From Bacillota bacterium (GTDB taxonomy: Bacteria; Bacillota; Clostridia; Lachnospirales; Bianqueaceae), in NCBI GenBank assembly GCA_017442735.1, contig JAFRZE010000042.1, forward strand, positions 1 through 64,000: a stretch of DNA of 64,000 nucleotides, written 5' to 3'. The notes beneath the pieces are model-generated. The model saw nothing but the letters and a program-made list of their open reading frames with translations, was not told the DNA's origin and ran no database searches. The position numbers and the translations under genes are program-made. Of this stretch, positions 29,942 through 43,704 are shown piece by piece; position 1 is the stretch's first letter, and each line of letters opens with the position of its first letter.

Positions 29942-30475
29942 ATGGGACTATTTAAGAAAATCTTTGGCGGAGACCAGAACATCAGTCTGGAAGGACTGGC
30001 AAAAAACCTTACGAATGCGGCAGAAAAAGTCGTGTCCAAGATCGAATCCTATGGCAGCGACAACACCTCATCCAAGCCGGCCGATTCTTTCGGCGGGTAC
30101 ACAGCTCCTGCCTATGAAGAGCCGGAACAGTCCGGCTTTTCCTGGGGCAATCGGATGCCCGCGGAAGAAAACCAGTATAACTATCCCGGCAACTATGTGC
30201 AGTATTTCGCGCATATCTTCGCTGAAGATTTCCCTGCCTATCAGGCTGCGAGCGAAAAAGATCCCAAGAGCAGCGCTACGATCTTCACACTGTACCAGGC
30301 CGGCCGCAAAGCACTGGTCGTCGAGCTGAAATCCGAAAGCAGCGAATCCAACCGCATTCGCCGCGCCTGCCAGATGGAAGGTACGCCCTATCTTCGTTTC
30401 TACTATGACCACGATGGCTGGTGGAACACCCGTGAATATGTCGTCACCCGTGTCCGTTCGGCGCTGAGGATCTGA
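29942..30475 (+). CDS. Unrecognised 177-residue protein upstream of the RT locus
   Basis: I do not recognise this protein with certainty. Residues 1-90 are low-complexity and linker-like (MGLFKKIFGG, then Ser/Pro/Gly-rich sequence with NYPGNYVQYF at the end). Residues ~90-177 are a compact alpha/beta domain: ATIFTLYQAGRKALVVELKS, RACQMEGTPYLRFYYDHDGW and WNTREYVVTRVRSAL. The strand VVELKS with a downstream strand recalls the E-x-K half of PD-(D/E)xK nucleases, but this is speculation. The start follows AAGGAGG. A hairpin (30460-30487) straddles its stop codon and the structured RNA of the reverse transcriptase begins directly after. Confidence 0.7.
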   Translation: MGLFKKIFGGDQNISLEGLAKNLTNAAEKVVSKIESYGSDNTSSKPADSFGGYTAPAYEEPEQSGFSWGNRMPAEENQYNYPGNYVQYFAHIFAEDFPAYQAASEKDPKSSATIFTLYQAGRKALVVELKSESSESNRIRRACQMEGTPYLRFYYDHDGWWNTREYVVTRVRSALRI

Positions 30476-30692
30476 TCCTAGGCGCCAAAGCGTCTGCAGA
30501 CGCTGCTAAATTACGTAAAAAACAGAAAGAGAATACAGCCATCGCTGTGCCTGTGGCGGGCCCGGCACAAGCTATTCTATGGCTTCGCAGGCAGCCGGTT
30601 TGTGTACGGTCTGGTATATCCCGGAATTTCCGGGATTTAACGCTTTCTCTTTCTGTTTTTTTATTGAATGTTGTGGCAGCGTCGCACGACGC
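30460..30692 (+). ncRNA. Candidate structured RNA upstream of the reverse transcriptase
   Basis: A 233-nt region, mostly non-coding, dense in complementarity. The main stem is AAAAAACAGAAAGAGAA (30517-30533) with its exact complement at 30645-30661, 17 bp enclosing 111 nt. Outside it GACGCTGC (30499-30506) pairs with GCAGCGTC (30676-30683). Each outer arm can instead fold locally: GCGTC-TGCA-GACGC at 30490-30503, GCGTC-GCAC-GACGC at 30679-30692. Inside are TGTGCC/GGCACA (30546-30551, 30564-30569), AAGCTA/TGGCTT (30569-30574, 30580-30585) and ATCCCGG/CCGGGAT (30618-30624, 30630-30636). A first hairpin spans 30460-30487. The boundaries are my estimate. The position just before an RT gene resembles retron and DRT-type loci. 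Confidence 0.65.
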
Positions 30693-30719
30693 GTAAATAT
30701 GCTTATTCCAGGAGTTATC

Positions 30720-31937
30720 ATGTCCCTTCTTGACCAACTGTCGGATCCGGCCGTCTGGGAAGCATTCTGCGACTACAAATCTTCTCTTGCCTGTCCGACC
30801 TATTTCCTTAAAAGCCTCAGGACGATGATCGACGAAAAGACTTATCTCCCCGTCTGTGAAGGGATCTCCCGCGGGGAGCGTTTTGCGTTGCCGAAAAAAG
30901 CCGTCATCAGTAAACTGAGCTCTGAAAAGAAACGGGTCGTCTATACCTATCCCCCGGCAGAAAACACGGTGACCAAACTCCTTACCTATCTGCTTCTTAG
31001 AAAATACGATCATCTGTTCTCCCATTGCCTCTATTCCTTCCGGCCCGGGAAAACAGCGAAGGACGCCGTCAGAAGACTGATCCGGACTTCCGGCATCCAT
31101 GAGATGTTCGCTTATAAAGTGGATATCCACGACTATTTCAATTCCATCCCGATCCCGCAGCTTATTCCGATGCTGGAAACGGTTCTGACCGATGACCCTC
31201 CGCTCTTCTCCTTTCTGCGTTCGCTGCTGGAGGAGGAAGAAGTGATCGATCAGGGCAGGCAGATCACTGAGCAAAAGGGGATCATGGCGGGAACACCGCT
31301 TTCTTCTTTTTATGCGAACCTGTATCTTCGTGATCTGGACCTCTCCTTTGAAAATCGTTCGATCCCCTACGCCCGGTATTCGGATGATATCATCGTTTTC
31401 GGAAAATCCCTGGAAGAAGTCCGGGACTATGCCAGTGAGATCCGGTCTTTTCTGGCCGATAAAGGGCTGAGCGTTAATCCGAAGAAAGAATCCTATTTCT
31501 CTCCGGGAGAACCATGGGTGTTTCTCGGTTTCGTGATCGATGGAAAGACAGTCGATATCGCACCGGCTACCATCACCAAACTCAAGCAGAAAATGCGTCG
31601 CAAGACTCGTGCGCTTGCCCGGTGGAAAAAGCGAAACGACCAGAGCGGAGAAAGAGCCGCGAAAGCTTTCATCCGCCTGTTTAATCGTAAACTGCTGGAG
31701 AATGCAAGAGATCATGAACTGACATGGAGCAACTGGTTTTTCTCTATGATCAATACGACCTCCTCTCTTCAGGAGATCGACCACTACGCGCAGGAATGCA
31801 TTCGTTATCTTTTATCGGACACCCATACAAAAGCCCGGTTCCGGGTCAAATATGAAGAAATAAAAAAACTCGGCTATCGAAATCTTGTCCATGCCTACTA
31901 TGATTACCAGAGAATAGAGGAAAACCATGGCCGGTAA
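30720..31937 (+). CDS. Stand-alone reverse transcriptase (group II/UG-like)
   Basis: 405 residues. RT motifs in order: KKRVVYTYPPAENTVTKLL (RT1-2 region, residues ~70-88), CLYSFRPGKTAKDAV (~103-117), catalytic Asp135 in YKVDIHDYFNS, KGIMAGTPLSSFYANLYL (~186-203), catalytic Y220-SDD (YARYSDDIIVF) and FLGFVIDGKTV (~268). The C-terminal ~120 residues are a helical thumb-like domain with basic KQKMRRKTRALARWKKR. There is no HNH endonuclease, no zinc finger and no clear maturase domain. Retron hallmarks (NAxxH, VTG) are not visible. The ATG at 30720 follows CAGGAG. An in-frame open stretch to 30579 lies in the structured RNA and is not counted. It is likely a defence or domesticated RT; substrate and template are unknown. 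Confidence 0.9.
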   Translation: MSLLDQLSDPAVWEAFCDYKSSLACPTYFLKSLRTMIDEKTYLPVCEGISRGERFALPKKAVISKLSSEKKRVVYTYPPAENTVTKLLTYLLLRKYDHLFSHCLYSFRPGKTAKDAVRRLIRTSGIHEMFAYKVDIHDYFNSIPIPQLIPMLETVLTDDPPLFSFLRSLLEEEEVIDQGRQITEQKGIMAGTPLSSFYANLYLRDLDLSFENRSIPYARYSDDIIVFGKSLEEVRDYASEIRSFLADKGLSVNPKKESYFSPGEPWVFLGFVIDGKTVDIAPATITKLKQKMRRKTRALARWKKRNDQSGERAAKAFIRLFNRKLLENARDHELTWSNWFFSMINTTSSLQEIDHYAQECIRYLLSDTHTKARFRVKYEEIKKLGYRNLVHAYYDYQRIEENHGR

Positions 31938-32033: not shown

Positions 32034-33467
32034 TTGAAACGTTCTGTTTTTGTTAAAAGCCTAGCCATTCTGATGGTTCTGGCACTGTTTCTGACCGGTT
32101 GTACCTCAGCCGCGACTGTATCGGAAGACGAGATCAAGGATGCCGCCGCTGCTTCATTAAAGGAAGAAGTGACCGCAGCCATTGAAGAAGAAGCGGCAGC
32201 TGCCGCCCCTGCGATCAATACACCTGAGGAAGAATCTCAGGAAGAATCTGCTGAAGAAGCTTCTCAGGAAGCAGAGGAAGAATCAGCCGAAGAATCCGCA
32301 GAAGAAACCGTCGAAGCCCAGACAGCCCCGGCGGAAGTACTGCAGATGGCTGCTTTTCCTGTTGGCGACATCGTAACTGCCGAACCTTTGGGAGACGGTG
32401 AAGAAGCCAGCCAGGAAGAGATCGAACGTATCGATCGGGCTATGCGTGACTATCAGTATCCGGAAACCAGTCCGCTGATCAACAACGCGAAATCTTTCTA
32501 TTACTATGAATGTCTCAACGAAGCGGGACAGGAACTCTATGATACGTTTATGATGGCAGCCTCTGATCCCTCCGGCAGCAACTATGTCGCGTACCTGACA
32601 TATGACAACCCGACGAGCCAGGACTTCAAGGATGCGGTCAACCTTTGCTTCTGGTGCATGCTGTACGACCATCCCGAACTCTACTATCTGTACATTTCCC
32701 GCAACATCAGCTGGAAATACGGTCGCAAGGACGCCAATTCTCCCTACACCGTTTACTTCTTTGTGGAAGCGTATCCAACCTTCCAACAGGATATGGCACA
32801 GTTCAATCAGGCTGTCGCCGCTTTCCTGAAGGATATCGATACGACGAAAGCGGAAATGACGATCGCTACGCAGATCCATGACAAACTGATCGCTCTGGTC
32901 AACTACGACTATGATCTGTATTACAACAAACAGCTCGCCTATAATGACCTTGGCCATACAGCTTTCGGCGCTCTGGTCCACAATCAGGAAGGCGTTCCGA
33001 ACTGCGCGGTCTGCGACGGTTATTCCCTTGCCTATATCTATCTGATGCAGCAGGTCGGCCTGAACGCGGTCTATGTCAGCGGTATGGCCGGTTCCACACC
33101 GCAGGATGTCGGCGGACATGCCTGGAACGTCGCCTATATCAGCGGCCAGTGGTACGAGATCGACTGTACCTGGGATGATTTCGGAAACAAACTGATCAAC
33201 CCCAAACTGGTGGGTACGGAATGGTATCCCTACTATCAGGAGATGAGCAGAGACCAGACCTTCGTGAACATTTATCAGCATTCACTGTTCCTGATCACGA
33301 CGGCGGAAATGAGAAACTACAAGAGCAGCGAGTATCAGTACTACTACTCCAAAGACAAGAAATGGATCTTCGATCCCGTTGGCGACAGTGTTCATATCCG
33401 TGACAATGAATACGGCCGCTGGTATATCTGGGATACCATCATGGGTGCCTGTCCCATTGCCAAATAA
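32034..33467 (+). CDS. Lipoprotein with transglutaminase-like domain
   Basis: 477 residues. The signal sequence MKRSVFVKSLAILMVLALFL ends at lipobox LTGC (Cys ~23), so it is a surface lipoprotein. Residues ~50-100 are a Glu/Ala/Ser-rich spacer with EESAEE-type repeats. Residues ~270-400 hold a transglutaminase-like (papain-fold) domain with Cys in CAVCDGYS (around residue 327), His in GGHAWNV (~360) and Asp in YEIDCTWDD, a full triad. Such bacterial domains are usually cysteine proteases or amide cross-linkers. The start is TTG at 32034 behind AAAGGAGGAG. It is the gene after the RT, but the 96-bp gap contains its own ribosome site and it need not be part of that system. Confidence 0.87.
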   Translation: MKRSVFVKSLAILMVLALFLTGCTSAATVSEDEIKDAAAASLKEEVTAAIEEEAAAAAPAINTPEEESQEESAEEASQEAEEESAEESAEETVEAQTAPAEVLQMAAFPVGDIVTAEPLGDGEEASQEEIERIDRAMRDYQYPETSPLINNAKSFYYYECLNEAGQELYDTFMMAASDPSGSNYVAYLTYDNPTSQDFKDAVNLCFWCMLYDHPELYYLYISRNISWKYGRKDANSPYTVYFFVEAYPTFQQDMAQFNQAVAAFLKDIDTTKAEMTIATQIHDKLIALVNYDYDLYYNKQLAYNDLGHTAFGALVHNQEGVPNCAVCDGYSLAYIYLMQQVGLNAVYVSGMAGSTPQDVGGHAWNVAYISGQWYEIDCTWDDFGNKLINPKLVGTEWYPYYQEMSRDQTFVNIYQHSLFLITTAEMRNYKSSEYQYYYSKDKKWIFDPVGDSVHIRDNEYGRWYIWDTIMGACPIAK

Positions 33468-37634: not shown

Positions 37635-40600
37635 TCAGGTCTTCCTGGAATTGTTTCTATGCTTCAGGACCAGAACGAAACAAAGGGCCGCAAGTCCCAT
37701 GACGATCGCACCGGTATAGAATCCTGTCCGCATATGATCGCCTGTCGGCGGATTCGGTCCGGGTTTCTCCGGTTCGGGCTGTGATTCCGGCTCGGAACTT
37801 GGTTCTGAACTTGATTCCTGTTCGGATTCCGAACTGCTTTCTGGCTCAGGCTCCGAACTTGATTCCGGTTCCGGTTCGGACGAAGACTCTTCCTTCGGTA
37901 ATTCCGGATAGAACACCTGCTGATCTTGATCGTTCAGCGAATCATGCCGCAGAATGATCGCGGCCTCATTCTCCGTATAATCCAGTTCTTCATCGTACAG
38001 GTCATAATCAAATAAGAGTTCGGTTACGACCAGTATTTTACCTTCATAAGCCGTCGCGTCAAAGACAAAAGCAGGCATGATCAGCTCACCGCTTGCAGGT
38101 CCCAGAAAACCGTATGATTTTTCTTCAACTTCTTCCACGTTTTCGCTGACGCGCAGCAGTATCCCGACAACACATTCCTTTCCTTCAGCATCTGTTACGA
38201 TTTTCCCTGTATCCGCTTCTTTCAGTATCGCTTCCAGGCGATACATATGTTCGTGAGCCAGGTTTTCATAGAAAACAATATCCCGAATGGAAGCCTCCTG
38301 CCGTGTCGTACCGATATGATCATTCGTCTGGCTGTCGGAAGCCACGGTACGCATCGTGGGAAGCCAGAGCATCTGGCGTTCATCTTTGCAGTCTTCGTTG
38401 TGAACGAGAAGTTCGATCTCTTTCCCTTCCGATTCGGTCAAAAGGATCGACACCGCATGGATACGGCCTCCGCTCAGTTCGGAGGAGTCAATGCTACATT
38501 CACTTTCGACCATACCGTAGGAAGTATTGGTCATATCCACCTTTTCCGGTTCGAACTGAATAGAAGATTCTCCGATCTGACGCATACTACCGCCGGCATC
38601 TTCATAATAGATCTTTGTCACCAGGCAGTATGTCTGTCCGATCTTCAGATGGTCATAATAGAAAGTATCTCTGATCCGTACTTCTTCTCCGATCGTCAGA
38701 GACTTGGAATTGGATGTGATATCGATCAGATCGGTACTCGGATGAATAATCAGATCGATAAACAGATTACCCAGCGAGTTCAGAGAGCCGTCTGTGAACA
38801 CTTCGGACAGATCAAACTCTTCTTCGGTTGAAGATGAGAAGAAGATCTCCTCCGACAGCATCACCTGCCCTTTGTTCGCTTCACACTGCAGTTCTTCGAT
38901 CCGGTAGCTCCCATAGATCAGTGCGCCTTTTCCTTCTTCCATGGACTGCGTATCCTTTGCCCCGAACCAGACGGCCGCACTCCCATCCAGCATGGATTCA
39001 TCGCTGAACCGGCCGTCTTTCACATATGTATCCAGAATATTGATGTTCCCTTCCGTCTTCTTTCGATCCATGGTATTGACCATGCCGTTCGCATCCGAAA
39101 CGATGACATGTGATTCGATCACTTTGCCTTCCGGATCCAGCAGTGAGATCCGGAAGGGAATGCCCGACATGGGAGAACCGTCGATATCGACTTTCGAAAA
39201 CCGTATATCACATCGCCGGATCTGCTCCGGCAGGACTTCCGGCTTCACGATCTCACCTGCTTCCCGGATTTCAAAGGTGACCTGCCAGTCGGAAATAAGG
39301 TAGCCTTCGGACGCTTCCTTCTCCCTCGCTTCATACGTCCCATAAGGCAGCACATTCTCTTCTGTCCCGCAGATACCGTTCTCATCGGTGGTCAATGTCA
39401 GAACGACTTCTCCCGGCGCGTAGATCTCCCCCTCCACGAAAACCGGATCCTGACTTCGGTTCACGATCTCGATGATCGCTCCTTCCAGTGTTCCGTGTCC
39501 CTGCGGCAAGGCTTGATCCAGTTCTCTGTCGATCTTTGAAAAGCTGACTCCGCCTCGCAGAACAGCGTTCGAAAAAAGTACTTTTTCTGTCTGTCCGTCT
39601 GTTCTCAGCTCGATCTTTCCACTTTGCTCCTTGAAAAGATAGCCGTTCTCGTTCGCGAATATGCTCGTACCGAGTTTATCGGAATTGTTATAGATATCAC
39701 CCGGCTCGATCAGCGCATCCGACCGCAGCTCATATATACCGTAAGATCCGTAGGGCAGCGCTCTTTCCTCTGATACGGCCGTGCCGTCTTCTCCTAGTGT
39801 CAGGATCATCACGACGACTCCCGGCGCGTAGAGCGTATCTTCCACTTTTACCTCTTTCAGAGACCGGTTCACGACCGCGTAACGGATCCCCGCGAATGAG
39901 GCGTCTCCCTGAGACAGCTCACATTCCTCATCCTGCTTCTCGATCATGACCGCCCCTTTTCCTACTTCGTCGCTGAACACGATCTTTCCGCCTTCCGTAT
40001 TGGCGGTGATGATCTCTCCATCCGTACGGATCCATAGAATCTGAGCTTCGCCGGAAGTCAAAAGGTACTTCCCGTTGGTCGCGATCTCCTCGATCTGATA
40101 TTTCCCGTAGGGAAGAAGATCCTGCGGCGTTGACGCGTTTCCGTCTTCATCGGTCGTCAATGTATACACGACCTGTCCCTTGCTGAAATCGGCCCCTTCC
40201 ACACGGACCGGATGATCGTTCAGCGTTGTGATCCGAAAACTGATACCCGCGAAATCCGCGTCTCCCTGCGCGCTCTGACTCATCAGATCGATATCCCATT
40301 TTTCCAGTGCCACTCCGCCGCGTATGATCTGTTCTTTCAAAAGAAAACTCTCATCCGTCAGATCTTTGATCGTCCCATGGTCAGCCTCGCTGATGCTGAA
40401 TTCGACTTTCCATCCGTCATTGCGCAGGTATCCTTCCGGCTCCGTCGTCTCCACAGCATAATAACTGCCCACGGGCAAAGCGTCTGCCGCGGAAAATGCC
40501 TGACCTTCTTCATCGGTCGTCAGTGTCATGACCAAAGAACCATCCGCGATCATGGTTCCGTTCTTCAGGATAATATCATGTCCGCTGTGATTATAAATAC

Positions 40601-42875
40601 TGATCTGAGCCTCATCCAGCTTTGCCGCGCCTTGTGCGGCAGAAAGACCTGTTTCTTTATCCGCTTTCCGGAATCGAACGCCGGCAAAAACCGCGTCGTT
40701 GAGATAGGAGGGACTGCCATCCGGTTCATACTTCAGTTTCCCGCTGGTTTCCGGGCTTACCCACTGAAACGCTGCTTCACCGGTCGACTGGCTGATCGTG
40801 ATGGTGCCTTTCAGTTCAAATCCGGACGCCAGATACCCATCCGGCGCCTTTTCTTCTGTCACGCGGATCGACCCCAGCGGAAAAGCGTTGCTGCTGGACG
40901 ATGTCGTATATAACGCGCTGCTTGTATAGGCCGGATCCAGATACGCGGAATTATTCAGAAACGCGAAGCCTTGACTGGTTTTAAAATACCATGTCCGGAC
41001 AGGGCTTCCAATCCAGGTATAGTTGTCGAAGAACTCCACTTTGAACGTTGCCGAAGACTCAGTGATCCGATGATTCCCCTGTGTACTGCTGCTTTTTATG
41101 ATCTGAATCCGATTCGGGTCCAGCGTAGGTGCGTCCTCAAAAGACACTTCCGCGGTTTTTTCCGGTTCTACCGTAACGCTCTTGACAGCCGGATCATAGA
41201 TATAACCGGTACCTGCGTTCGTGCCCGCGGCTTCCTGGATCCAGTATATACCCGGATTCAGTCCCTCCAGAAGATCCGATATGCCTGTGGAGGTGTCCAC
41301 GTCATACGAGGTGATCGTCAGTGAACCTACTTTATCGGAAAGCGCCGGGGATGATGACGTACCTGTATTGGTTTTGTAGACATCAAACCGGATCCCTGTC
41401 ATATCATAGCAGACATTCCCGTTGGTAGCCGCCGTATTGCTGCTGATCTTAGTGACCCTCATCCTGCCGACCAGCAGTTCTTCCGAATCAACGATCAACG
41501 GTGATTCCGCTGTATTCTGCGCGCTGACGCTGACAGCGTGGATCACCGGATCCCACTGCCAGGCCAAATCTGTCGGGCGGACGATCTCTACGATCCAGTA
41601 GCTTCCGGGAGAAAGTTCCAGGACCTCTGAATATCCGTCGCTTCCTACCGCAAGCGTTGCCGTGGTTCCTTCCGTCCCTATATTCGTATTTGACCTGGTT
41701 TGTTTCGCTTTGGCTGAAGCAGCCGCGCTTTCATCGGAAAAGACACCGTACACAGCCCCTGTCACCGGATGCGCGGCCAAAAACGCCTCGGAGGCCTGCG
41801 TGTTCGTTTTATGAACACGCAGATATCCATGATAAACGGGCGTTCCGATCGAGATCATCGGCTGTGTGCTGCTGCCTGTTTCCGGATAAAGCGCACCAAC
41901 GGATTCGATAATGCTGTTTTCCGGAAAACGTCCGTTCGGATAAGCGGACGCGTAAGCCAGGGCCTCTCCTGCCATATCTTCGATGGCGTTCCTATATATG
42001 TCTCCATAGCCGGCGGGGTCAAACCCCATCAGTTTCCAGATGACGCCCGTGATCATATTCTGATACGGCCAGTCCTCCTCACTGCACATAGTCATAAGGT
42101 ATGTCGGTGTCCCTGTAGAAGGATATCGGTTTGTCCAGTAATTATACAGAACGAAATACAGTGCCTGAAGACTGGCGCTGCGTCCGGTCGCCTCCAGATA
42201 TGAAGCCAGGTCAGAGTAGTAAAACGTTTGCCCGTCAGACGGGACGCCCATCGACATATCCAGACAGAACAGATGATTGCCGTTGGTATTGTCATAAGCC
42301 CTTCCGCTATGCCCGCTGTCCGGCATCAGCGAAATGGTCGTTTCCCCTTCCTCCGGCGCGGCAGAGCGAAGTTCCTCTCCGCCCTTTTTTGTATCAGTCA
42401 CTCTCTGATCGATCACGACAAGATCGACATACCCTTCCATCGTGCCGACGACCAGACGGACCTCCCGGACATCTGTCAGATCGATCTTTGTCACCGCTCC
42501 GTATCCGTAGGAGGTCTCTATCGTTTCGACATTTCCATCCATATGGGTCAATTCCAGTACTTCGGCATAGGTCCATCCGGTATATACACAGAAATCCATG
42601 GAAGATCCGGCCAGTGATCGTTCGATCGCTACCGTATGCTCGTCTACCGCCTGAAACAGGTTTTCACTGTCGCCGGTCACCTCGATCTGGCCACGCTGAC
42701 CTTCGAAGAGTGAATACTTACCGATCTCAAATCCCGCTCCCCAGCCCTCTACAGAAATCAGGATAAGATCCTCTTTCTCCTCGATCTCCTCGGCCATCGC
42801 AGGAAGGTCCATACCGGAGATCATCATGACGAGCGCCATGATAATGACCAGCCATATTCTTGCTTTTTGTCTCAT
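37635..42875 (-). CDS. Large sortase-anchored surface protein with SpaA-like repeats
   Basis: 1746 residues. Signal peptide: MRQKARIWLVIIMALVMMIS, cleaved near AMA-EE. A thioester-type domain follows (~190-330) with Cys204 in HLFCLDMSMG, but the usual TQ-x-A/V-I-W reads ITGVIW, so the Gln partner of a thioester is lacking. Several SpaA/prealbumin-like domains come next, four of them close tandem copies (QGDA-x-FAGI ... LTTDEDG ... LPYG-x-Y), then two VaFE-like repeats (~1420-1660). The C-terminus has a SSSEPEPE spacer, sorting motif NPPTGD, a hydrophobic segment (FYTGAIVMGLAALCFVLVL) and KHRNNSRKT. It is a wall-anchored adhesin or pilin-like stalk. I use the ATG at 42875 (AGAGGA site). No sortase gene is nearby. 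Confidence 0.92.
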   Translation of the reverse strand: MRQKARIWLVIIMALVMMISGMDLPAMAEEIEEKEDLILISVEGWGAGFEIGKYSLFEGQRGQIEVTGDSENLFQAVDEHTVAIERSLAGSSMDFCVYTGWTYAEVLELTHMDGNVETIETSYGYGAVTKIDLTDVREVRLVVGTMEGYVDLVVIDQRVTDTKKGGEELRSAAPEEGETTISLMPDSGHSGRAYDNTNGNHLFCLDMSMGVPSDGQTFYYSDLASYLEATGRSASLQALYFVLYNYWTNRYPSTGTPTYLMTMCSEEDWPYQNMITGVIWKLMGFDPAGYGDIYRNAIEDMAGEALAYASAYPNGRFPENSIIESVGALYPETGSSTQPMISIGTPVYHGYLRVHKTNTQASEAFLAAHPVTGAVYGVFSDESAAASAKAKQTRSNTNIGTEGTTATLAVGSDGYSEVLELSPGSYWIVEIVRPTDLAWQWDPVIHAVSVSAQNTAESPLIVDSEELLVGRMRVTKISSNTAATNGNVCYDMTGIRFDVYKTNTGTSSSPALSDKVGSLTITSYDVDTSTGISDLLEGLNPGIYWIQEAAGTNAGTGYIYDPAVKSVTVEPEKTAEVSFEDAPTLDPNRIQIIKSSSTQGNHRITESSATFKVEFFDNYTWIGSPVRTWYFKTSQGFAFLNNSAYLDPAYTSSALYTTSSSSNAFPLGSIRVTEEKAPDGYLASGFELKGTITISQSTGEAAFQWVSPETSGKLKYEPDGSPSYLNDAVFAGVRFRKADKETGLSAAQGAAKLDEAQISIYNHSGHDIILKNGTMIADGSLVMTLTTDEEGQAFSAADALPVGSYYAVETTEPEGYLRNDGWKVEFSISEADHGTIKDLTDESFLLKEQIIRGGVALEKWDIDLMSQSAQGDADFAGISFRITTLNDHPVRVEGADFSKGQVVYTLTTDEDGNASTPQDLLPYGKYQIEEIATNGKYLLTSGEAQILWIRTDGEIITANTEGGKIVFSDEVGKGAVMIEKQDEECELSQGDASFAGIRYAVVNRSLKEVKVEDTLYAPGVVVMILTLGEDGTAVSEERALPYGSYGIYELRSDALIEPGDIYNNSDKLGTSIFANENGYLFKEQSGKIELRTDGQTEKVLFSNAVLRGGVSFSKIDRELDQALPQGHGTLEGAIIEIVNRSQDPVFVEGEIYAPGEVVLTLTTDENGICGTEENVLPYGTYEAREKEASEGYLISDWQVTFEIREAGEIVKPEVLPEQIRRCDIRFSKVDIDGSPMSGIPFRISLLDPEGKVIESHVIVSDANGMVNTMDRKKTEGNINILDTYVKDGRFSDESMLDGSAAVWFGAKDTQSMEEGKGALIYGSYRIEELQCEANKGQVMLSEEIFFSSSTEEEFDLSEVFTDGSLNSLGNLFIDLIIHPSTDLIDITSNSKSLTIGEEVRIRDTFYYDHLKIGQTYCLVTKIYYEDAGGSMRQIGESSIQFEPEKVDMTNTSYGMVESECSIDSSELSGGRIHAVSILLTESEGKEIELLVHNEDCKDERQMLWLPTMRTVASDSQTNDHIGTTRQEASIRDIVFYENLAHEHMYRLEAILKEADTGKIVTDAEGKECVVGILLRVSENVEEVEEKSYGFLGPASGELIMPAFVFDATAYEGKILVVTELLFDYDLYDEELDYTENEAAIILRHDSLNDQDQQVFYPELPKEESSSEPEPESSSEPEPESSSESEQESSSEPSSEPESQPEPEKPGPNPPTGDHMRTGFYTGAIVMGLAALCFVLVLKHRNNSRKT
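39210..40690 (-). repeat. Four tandem SpaA-like domain repeats in the adhesin gene
   Basis: About 110-125 codons each. Each unit starts at QG(A/D/H) followed by a strand, an IxNxS-like motif, a VEG-x3-Y/A-x-G-x-VV strand, an LTTDEDG-type loop and an LPYG-x-Y strand. Copies have diverged at DNA level, so the repeat is ancient rather than a recent slippage. The edges are approximate. Confidence 0.7.
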
Positions 42876-42894
42876 CGTTTTTTCCTCTTTTCTA

Positions 42895-43704
42895 TTATTC
42901 ATCGTCTGTCTGACTTCCGCAGATCCTGCAGATCTGCCCGACTACGACCTCTTCGCTGTATGCCGCCTGATCGATCACCCAGATCGTCTGAGTAACAGCT
43001 TCATGATGGATCGTTTCCTGTCCTGTTATGACTTCTTCATCGATATAGGTAACGGTGAAGCTGTCATGGATATCCTCTTCATCGTCCGCGTGTTCGATGG
43101 AATGCATCTCCCACTCAAAGTCCGTGTCAAACAGGGCGCCGCAGCGGCAGCGACATTTCTCTGTACGACAAAGCTCCACGATATCGCGAATCTCATCCCA
43201 TTCTTCCTGCAGAACGATCTCCTCATAGTGGCCCTGCTCCGGATGTTCGACTGTTTCCACGATATCGACCCACTCATGAGTACAAATTGTCGCTTCCGAT
43301 ACTTCCGCAGATTCGACCGTTTCCTCCACTTCAGAAGAAACTGTTTCGACTGGTGATTCCTCTTCTGTAACAGTCTCCGGCAATGAAGATATTTCCTCTT
43401 CTGCGGCTTTCTCCGGCAATGAAGATGCTTCTTCTTCCGTTGCGATATCCTCTTCTAAAGAGGATTCCGTTTTCTCAACGAGTTCTTCCTTTTCGGATGA
43501 TGCTTCTGTTACCTCCAAAACCGTTTCTTCTGACGGTTCCGATCGCTTTATCTCATCTGATACCGCCGACACTTCCCGGACTGGTTTTCGCCCGGACCTC
43601 AGTGCACTGCCTTCCTTCTTTTTCATATGACCGGAAAGACAGATACCGATAACTGTGATCAGCAGAAAGATGACCAGCAGAATGATCCTTCGTTTTTTCT
43701 TCAA
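42895..43704 (-). CDS. Acidic single-pass membrane protein with a Cys/His-rich end
   Basis: 269 residues. Basic start then a transmembrane helix (MKKKRRIILLVIFLLITVIG), a long Glu/Ser/Val-rich spacer (~50-140, repeats of EEASSLPEKAAEEE type), and a C-terminal domain with metal-binding pairs: CTHEW, CRTEKCRCRCG and CRICG, plus HEWV, HYEE and HSIEHADDE. The pattern suggests a zinc-ribbon-like extracytoplasmic module. I prefer a TTG start at 43704: AGAGGTGG lies 5 nt before it, while the GTG at 43713 overlaps that site. It is 19 bp upstream of the adhesin gene, so the two are expressed together; it may be an assembly partner. Confidence 0.75.
   Translation of the reverse strand: MKKKRRIILLVIFLLITVIGICLSGHMKKKEGSALRSGRKPVREVSAVSDEIKRSEPSEETVLEVTEASSEKEELVEKTESSLEEDIATEEEASSLPEKAAEEEISSLPETVTEEESPVETVSSEVEETVESAEVSEATICTHEWVDIVETVEHPEQGHYEEIVLQEEWDEIRDIVELCRTEKCRCRCGALFDTDFEWEMHSIEHADDEEDIHDSFTVTYIDEEVITGQETIHHEAVTQTIWVIDQAAYSEEVVVGQICRICGSQTDDE

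Follow-up and report, generated by a model that had tools for sequence, protein, structure and literature searches.

Among reverse transcriptases (RTs) of the UG/DRT kind, DRT2, 3a, 9 and 10 have been reported as ncRNA-templated Class 2 enzymes (PMC12632851, PMC13174585), and in DRT3b and DRT1 DNA synthesis proceeds with no nucleic acid as template (PMC13174585, PMC13275509). DRT10, built from a UG17 RT, an ncRNA and SLATT, is tripartite, with an ncRNA of about 140 nt, a small partner gene and a single-domain RT (PMC12632851), and the ncRNA of DRT2 contains a pseudoknot (PMC12596737). Beside these systems stand three separately catalogued items of unknown function: the Rfam family RT-5 (RF03026), the UG26 RT and the protein family RTasCOG2852. 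The literature that we found mentioning UG26 holds no functional characterisation of it, and a link between RT-5 and UG26 may have been mentioned earlier. In a gut or rumen bacterium, whose RT branch is catalogued but functionally unstudied, we find these items joined in one module. Its RNA has defined boundaries, a closing stem that covaries and a pseudoknot, and the module is known from at least 75 loci, so that what RT-5 RNA does can be tested directly.

A compact cassette of partner gene, RNA and RT

The cassette consists of a partner protein, an RT-5 ncRNA and a UG26 RT, and is one compact unit of the Class 2 UG/DRT kind; its identity alone, as UG26 with RT-5 and a COG2852-like partner, is near certain. 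In the window, by which we mean the whole 64,000-nt stretch of DNA that was analysed, all three parts lie on the + strand in an order that is conserved among loci: the partner gene is 5′ (29942–30475, 177 aa), the RNA follows (core at 30517–30661), and the RT is 3′ (30720–31937, 405 aa). Spacing is tight, with medians of 16 nt between the partner stop codon and the RNA stem and 22 nt between that stem and the start of the RT. An earlier note on this DNA had described the RT as stand-alone and as fitting none of the standard RT classes, and neither statement survived. The protein, which starts at 30720 and carries an RT domain only, matches the PADLOC model RT_UG26 at 573 bits over model positions 1–396 of 398; its further PADLOC scores are 116 for UG27, 108 for the generic RT model, 107 for UG17, 98 for Drt9, 95 for UG4, 77 for Drt3a and 74 for Drt2. 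A partner gene occurs just upstream in 72 of the 77 UG26 loci considered (GTDB loci with enough upstream sequence, among the matches listed). In the window it lies directly 5′ of the RNA, and its product matches RTasCOG2852 over the full length at 188 bits. Compared with the catalogued pairing of RT_UG26 and RTasCOG2852, in which the partner likewise precedes the RT, we found no difference.

The RNA itself was recovered by a full-length match to RT-5 (30545–30648, model positions 1–104; E 7.6e-18), which at 95.1 bits has twice the gathering score of 45.7 and falls inside the span of a 17-bp stem. An Rfam scan of the window returned this RNA, four tRNAs and nothing else. RNA and RT are tightly linked: the RNA was found in 75 of the same 77 loci (again among the matches listed), and of 383 genomes from the window's order, 18 have RT-5, all of them UG26 genomes, with each RNA about 30–325 nt 5′ of the UG26 RT. 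R1, a covariance model built from close loci that scores 136 bits on the window's RNA, also detects the RNA in each of 12 distant loci (L009–L020; E 1e-5 to 1e-15), whose RTs are 35–45% identical, and RT-5 confirms it in the same 12. R1 gave no match in the loci of UG17, group II and retron RTs. No RT-5 RNA appeared in the fetched DNA of a divergent UG26 branch (L021–L023, with RT scores of 366–380 bits in the first two); this counts against a mechanism of the UG/DRT kind, and members of the branch may use a different RNA or work without one. L074 and L095, two close UG26 RTs for which enough upstream DNA is available, have neither RNA nor partner and are either isolated copies or assembly faults.

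The resemblance to DRT10 lies in the three parts, an ncRNA, a small partner and a single-domain RT (PMC12632851). The differences are that the partner here matches RTasCOG2852 and no other PADLOC model, and that both R1 and RT-5 are silent in two UG17 loci. DRT9 (UG28) and DRT2 are likewise Class 2 DRTs with a cis-encoded ncRNA, which is pseudoknotted in DRT2 as it is here (PMC12596737); the window's cassette differs from both in lacking a visible poly-U template loop, in having the extra partner gene and in its RNA family. The earlier note proposed an RNA–RT unit like those of ncRNA-dependent DRTs, neither retron nor group II intron, and this held up. Its description of the system as undescribed was right for function, UG26 being uncharacterised in the literature found, but not for the parts, which are catalogued in Rfam and among the PADLOC DRT models; because of this we regard the locus as an RNA–RT system of the UG/DRT kind and not as a new class. 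Possibly new are the combination of the three parts, the long closing stem with the pseudoknot, and the degenerate partner.

Structure of the RNA and the search for a template

The region 30490–30690 folds to −89.2 kcal/mol, compared with −58.0 ± 4.1 for shuffled sequences (z −7.5; none of 200 as low). Covariation was counted in 71 loci that had been aligned without the use of any structure. For the structure as a whole, 93.1% of cells pair, compared with 48% at best when one strand is slid against the other, and 39 of 49 pairs show two-sided changes, compared with 25.1 ± 2.1 in shuffles (none of 500 as high). A conserved structure thus lies upstream of the RT homologues, as had been anticipated. 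The closing stem P1 joins AAAAAACAGAAAGAGAA (30517–30533) to its exact reverse complement (30645–30661), which ends in a run of U; two-sided compensatory changes occur in 16 of the 17 pairs and pairing is kept in 92% of cells, so the 17-bp stem read earlier from the letters is borne out.

The internal hairpins that had been noted within this stem are upheld, and a pseudoknot was found in addition. P2 is a small hairpin of ACAGC and GCUGU (30535–30548), supported by the minimum-energy fold and by eye on aligned sequences, where relatives have CGC/GCG or longer. P3 (30557–30613) has a lower part pairing 30557–30562 with 30608–30613 and an upper part pairing 30565–30572 with 30598–30605, and changes on both sides in 10 of 14 pairs. 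P4 (30618–30636) does so in 6 of 7. The 7-bp pseudoknot pairs GCCUGUG (30549–30555) with CGCAGGC (30586–30592), the loop of a hairpin at 30581–30596; every cell pairs in the 71 loci, with two-sided change in 3 pairs, and across 11 distant loci 76 of 77 cells pair, compared with 23–53% when slid, including through variants such as GCUCGC/GCGAGC in L019 and CCCAU/GUGGG in L020. As the structure line of Rfam RT-5 has neither a long P1 (17 bp in the window) nor the pseudoknot, both of these covariation-supported elements extend the Rfam consensus. The apical loop of P3 (30573–30580) is variable, at 6–30 nt in aligned loci; extra hairpin-rich inserts occur in the P3 apical region of a few others (L042, L057, L086 and L017), which indicates that this region tolerates large additions. 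The junction J4/1, AUUUAACGCUUUCU (30635–30648), lies behind a stable hairpin, a position shared with the template of DRT10; its UUUAA is invariant in the alignment columns of close relatives, and we regard the junction as a candidate template or contact site.

One element proposed in the earlier note did not persist. An 8-bp outer stem (30499–30506 with 30676–30683) is exact as read, but its conservation is at chance level: complementarity of at least 7 bp is present in 4 of 71 loci, compared with 4.5% of cross-paired controls, and the closest relative (L027) has only 4 bp. We therefore rejected it as part of the RNA. In 9 loci there are fewer than 8 nt between the upstream gene and the 17-bp stem. 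No sigma-70-like site from which the RNA might have its own promoter was seen on the + strand between partner and RT, where counts equal those of shuffles.

We then considered which part of the RNA might be copied. The data do not support a template of the DRT10 kind in the apical loop: unlike DRT10, the family shows no enrichment of A-B-A′ arrangements there, with 3-nt repeats in 16.9% of cases across the 71 loci compared with 17.9% of shuffles. The arrangement CUAU-U-CUAU in the window's apical loop was rejected as such a template because direct repeats are no commoner than in shuffles, and GUAC-GGUCUG-GUAU was rejected because its two copies do not co-vary. No co-varying repeats were found in J3/4. 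Within J4/1, A/A′ matching of own pairs was slightly above re-paired controls in the 71 close loci (9 of 2000), an excess that kinship can cause, and was not above them in 12 distant loci.

We favour, with moderate confidence, a mechanism in which the RT would bind the RNA as a scaffold, a short single-stranded part of the RNA would serve as template for repeated rounds of cDNA synthesis, and either this cDNA or the complex would control the partner, the outcome being phage defence, probably by stopping the infected cell. We infer these steps because the closest other DRT models include those of DRT2, 3a, 9 and 10, enzymes reported as ncRNA-templated. Counted for this reading are the UG26 score, the RT-5 match, the covariation, the near-exclusive linkage of RNA and RT, the occurrence of partner and RNA in most of the 77 loci, the unshared neighbours described below and the pseudoknot of DRT2. 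By analogy with the described DRTs, the RNA would act as scaffold, and probably also as template, for the synthesis of short cDNA, and the short DNA copies made by this RT branch would most likely serve against viruses. If the RNA is copied, the cassette would be another cDNA-producing system in a group now linked to the origin of telomerase (PMC12632851).

One may postulate an alternative scenario, to which we give a distinctly smaller but appreciable chance, in which the RNA scaffolds or activates the RT, or regulates the operon, and DNA is synthesised with no template or with a different one. Neither an A-B-A′ nor a homopolymer template was found in the RNA, its conserved unpaired bases could be protein contacts, it sits between the partner and RT genes, and DNA synthesis by DRT3b and DRT1 uses no nucleic acid template (PMC13174585, PMC13275509). 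The nearest other UG models include enzymes reported as copying their ncRNA, however, and a pseudoknotted 140-nt RNA with near-invariant unpaired stretches would seem to exceed the needs of a 5′ UTR. Within templated synthesis, a bolder possibility, which we hold only tentatively and think rather unlikely, is that a near-invariant unpaired stretch such as the UUUAA junction J4/1 would be copied in a manner unlike that of DRT2, DRT3, DRT9 or DRT10, and that the cDNA would be read by a catalytically dead PD-(D/E)XK-like partner whose N-terminus seeks the membrane, a new type of DNA-signalled effector.

The partner protein and the genomic setting

The partner has a hydrophobic N-terminus (MGLFKKIFG), a variable linker and a C-terminal PD-(D/E)XK-like domain (about residues 75–177), and all 61 aligned homologues match RTasCOG2852 as it does. 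Sequence searches of Pfam, NCBIfam and the PDB gave nothing solid. The AlphaFold model is confident for the C-terminal domain (about residues 71–177), which runs helix, three strands, helix, strand, helix; in this predicted structure the order of elements fits the alpha-beta-beta-beta-alpha-beta core of the PD-(D/E)XK fold. The best VIA-align matches are mostly PD-(D/E)XK enzymes and are all weak (I-Bth0305I at Z 6.8, EcoT38I at 6.5, McrC and Hjc), and the Foldseek matches have E above 0.03. The E-x-K catalytic pair of this fold is incomplete: E128 is present in 61 of 61 partners, K130 in only 5 of 61, and divergent partners just 5′ of distant RTs (L014, L011, L017 and L020; E 9e-10 to 5e-3) appear to be without E128. 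Given the degenerate lysine and these divergent partners, the protein may bind nucleic acid rather than cut it, and it is probably a nucleic-acid-binding or membrane-proximal effector and not an ordinary nuclease. The N-terminus is conserved among homologues as MG[LF]xSK[LI][LF]G, and contact with the membrane through it is a guess.

The UG26 family is patchy: 25 of the 392 genomes from the window's order have it, as do 2 of 398 across the phylum, and both of the latter belong to that same order. A scan of GTDB contigs gave at least 509 relatives among its candidates, of which the best 80 were kept; among the matches listed, relatives come mostly from rumen and gut Lachnospiraceae, Oscillospiraceae and other Clostridia. 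Ruminococcus flavefaciens MA2007, a genome not labelled as a metagenome assembly, carries the cassette. No relatives were found in the phage and plasmid sets, and the viral set gave only two contigs (L107 and L108), with RTs 26–27% identical over part of the window RT's length; this virtual absence counts against a UG/DRT mechanism. A search for UG27 and DRT9 in 256 genomes of the order gave no match at E 1e-50, and the controls gave no match either.

The neighbours of UG26 loci are mostly unshared: in 6-kb flanks, 446 of 455 gene clusters are present in at most 2 loci, the exceptions including the partner, the RT and one cluster whose ORFs run antisense to the partner gene. In a genome of the same genus, the same mannosidase gene stands before an unrelated gene, and that genome's UG26 cassette lies on a different contig. 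These observations indicate that the cassette is a self-contained unit at different chromosomal sites, and its presence is variable within the window's genus. They also bear on whether the enzyme could serve in housekeeping or repair and use the RNA as its cofactor. G2L4 group II-like RTs have a reported role in DNA repair, and a similar role would suit a chromosomal gene for which phage and plasmid searches gave none and whose product has a fold close to group II and G2L4 RTs; the patchy distribution, the unshared neighbours and the differing presence within a genus nevertheless make this role improbable.

Two genes of the surroundings can be mentioned here. Directly 3′ of the RT lies a lipoprotein with a transglutaminase core (32034–33467, + strand), which among the loci is common only to the window and its closest relative (L027), and is therefore probably outside the cassette. 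Farther along is a 1755-aa secreted protein (37635–42902, − strand), which has repeated domains, ends at its C-terminus in an anchor-like tail of PNPPTGDH followed by a hydrophobic stretch, and by eye resembles a large surface adhesin.

Class and fold of the RT

The catalytic Asp135 and YSDD motif read earlier are present (Y220-S-D-D223), and D135, Y220, D222 and D223 are invariant across 18 divergent homologues, down to 34% identity. In an RT tree, which is small and has a small reference set, all UG26 sequences fall on one side of a branch (93/91; present in every one of 200 bootstrap trees) that separates them from group II and UG17, and the window RT lies within a starred set of 5. This is the outcome of a check that the earlier note had proposed, and it places the RT in the UG26 clade and outside group II. 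The predicted structure (pLDDT 92) is closest to group II RTs (Z 30 with GsI-IIC), followed by G2L4 (27), DGR (25), DRT9 (24) and DRT2 (21.5); that the model is nearer to group II RTs than to DRT9 counts against the UG/DRT mechanism.

A long inverted repeat that closes an RNA just 5′ of an RT is also what would be expected if P1 were the a1/a2 repeat of a retron, with part of the RNA copied into msDNA. We consider this very improbable, as the retron models listed for the window RT reach at most 55 bits, compared with 573 for UG26, whereas a true retron RT of the same family (L115) does score on them. The earlier note had seen neither NAxxH nor VTG; VTG is indeed absent, but a NARDH string exists at residues 328–332, confined to a non-conserved, low-confidence loop of the C-terminal region, which is not the position of the motif in retrons. 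That the cassette is a relic of a group II intron is scarcely credible even with group II RTs as the nearest structures, since the tree separates UG26 from group II and the window matches no group II RNA family, as the earlier note had it, in a search that does find group II domains beside group II RTs (L109 and L117); an intact intron is ruled out on the same grounds. The UG26 assignment is consistent with the behaviour of control RTs from related genomes, which went to other PADLOC models: L109 to group II, L119 and L120 to UG17, and L115 to a retron model. The last of these (L115:1237–3143, − strand; best PADLOC model RT_II-A) comes from a same-family genome and has a 315-aa gene just upstream, which by eye is possibly a nucleoside deoxyribosyltransferase-like effector.
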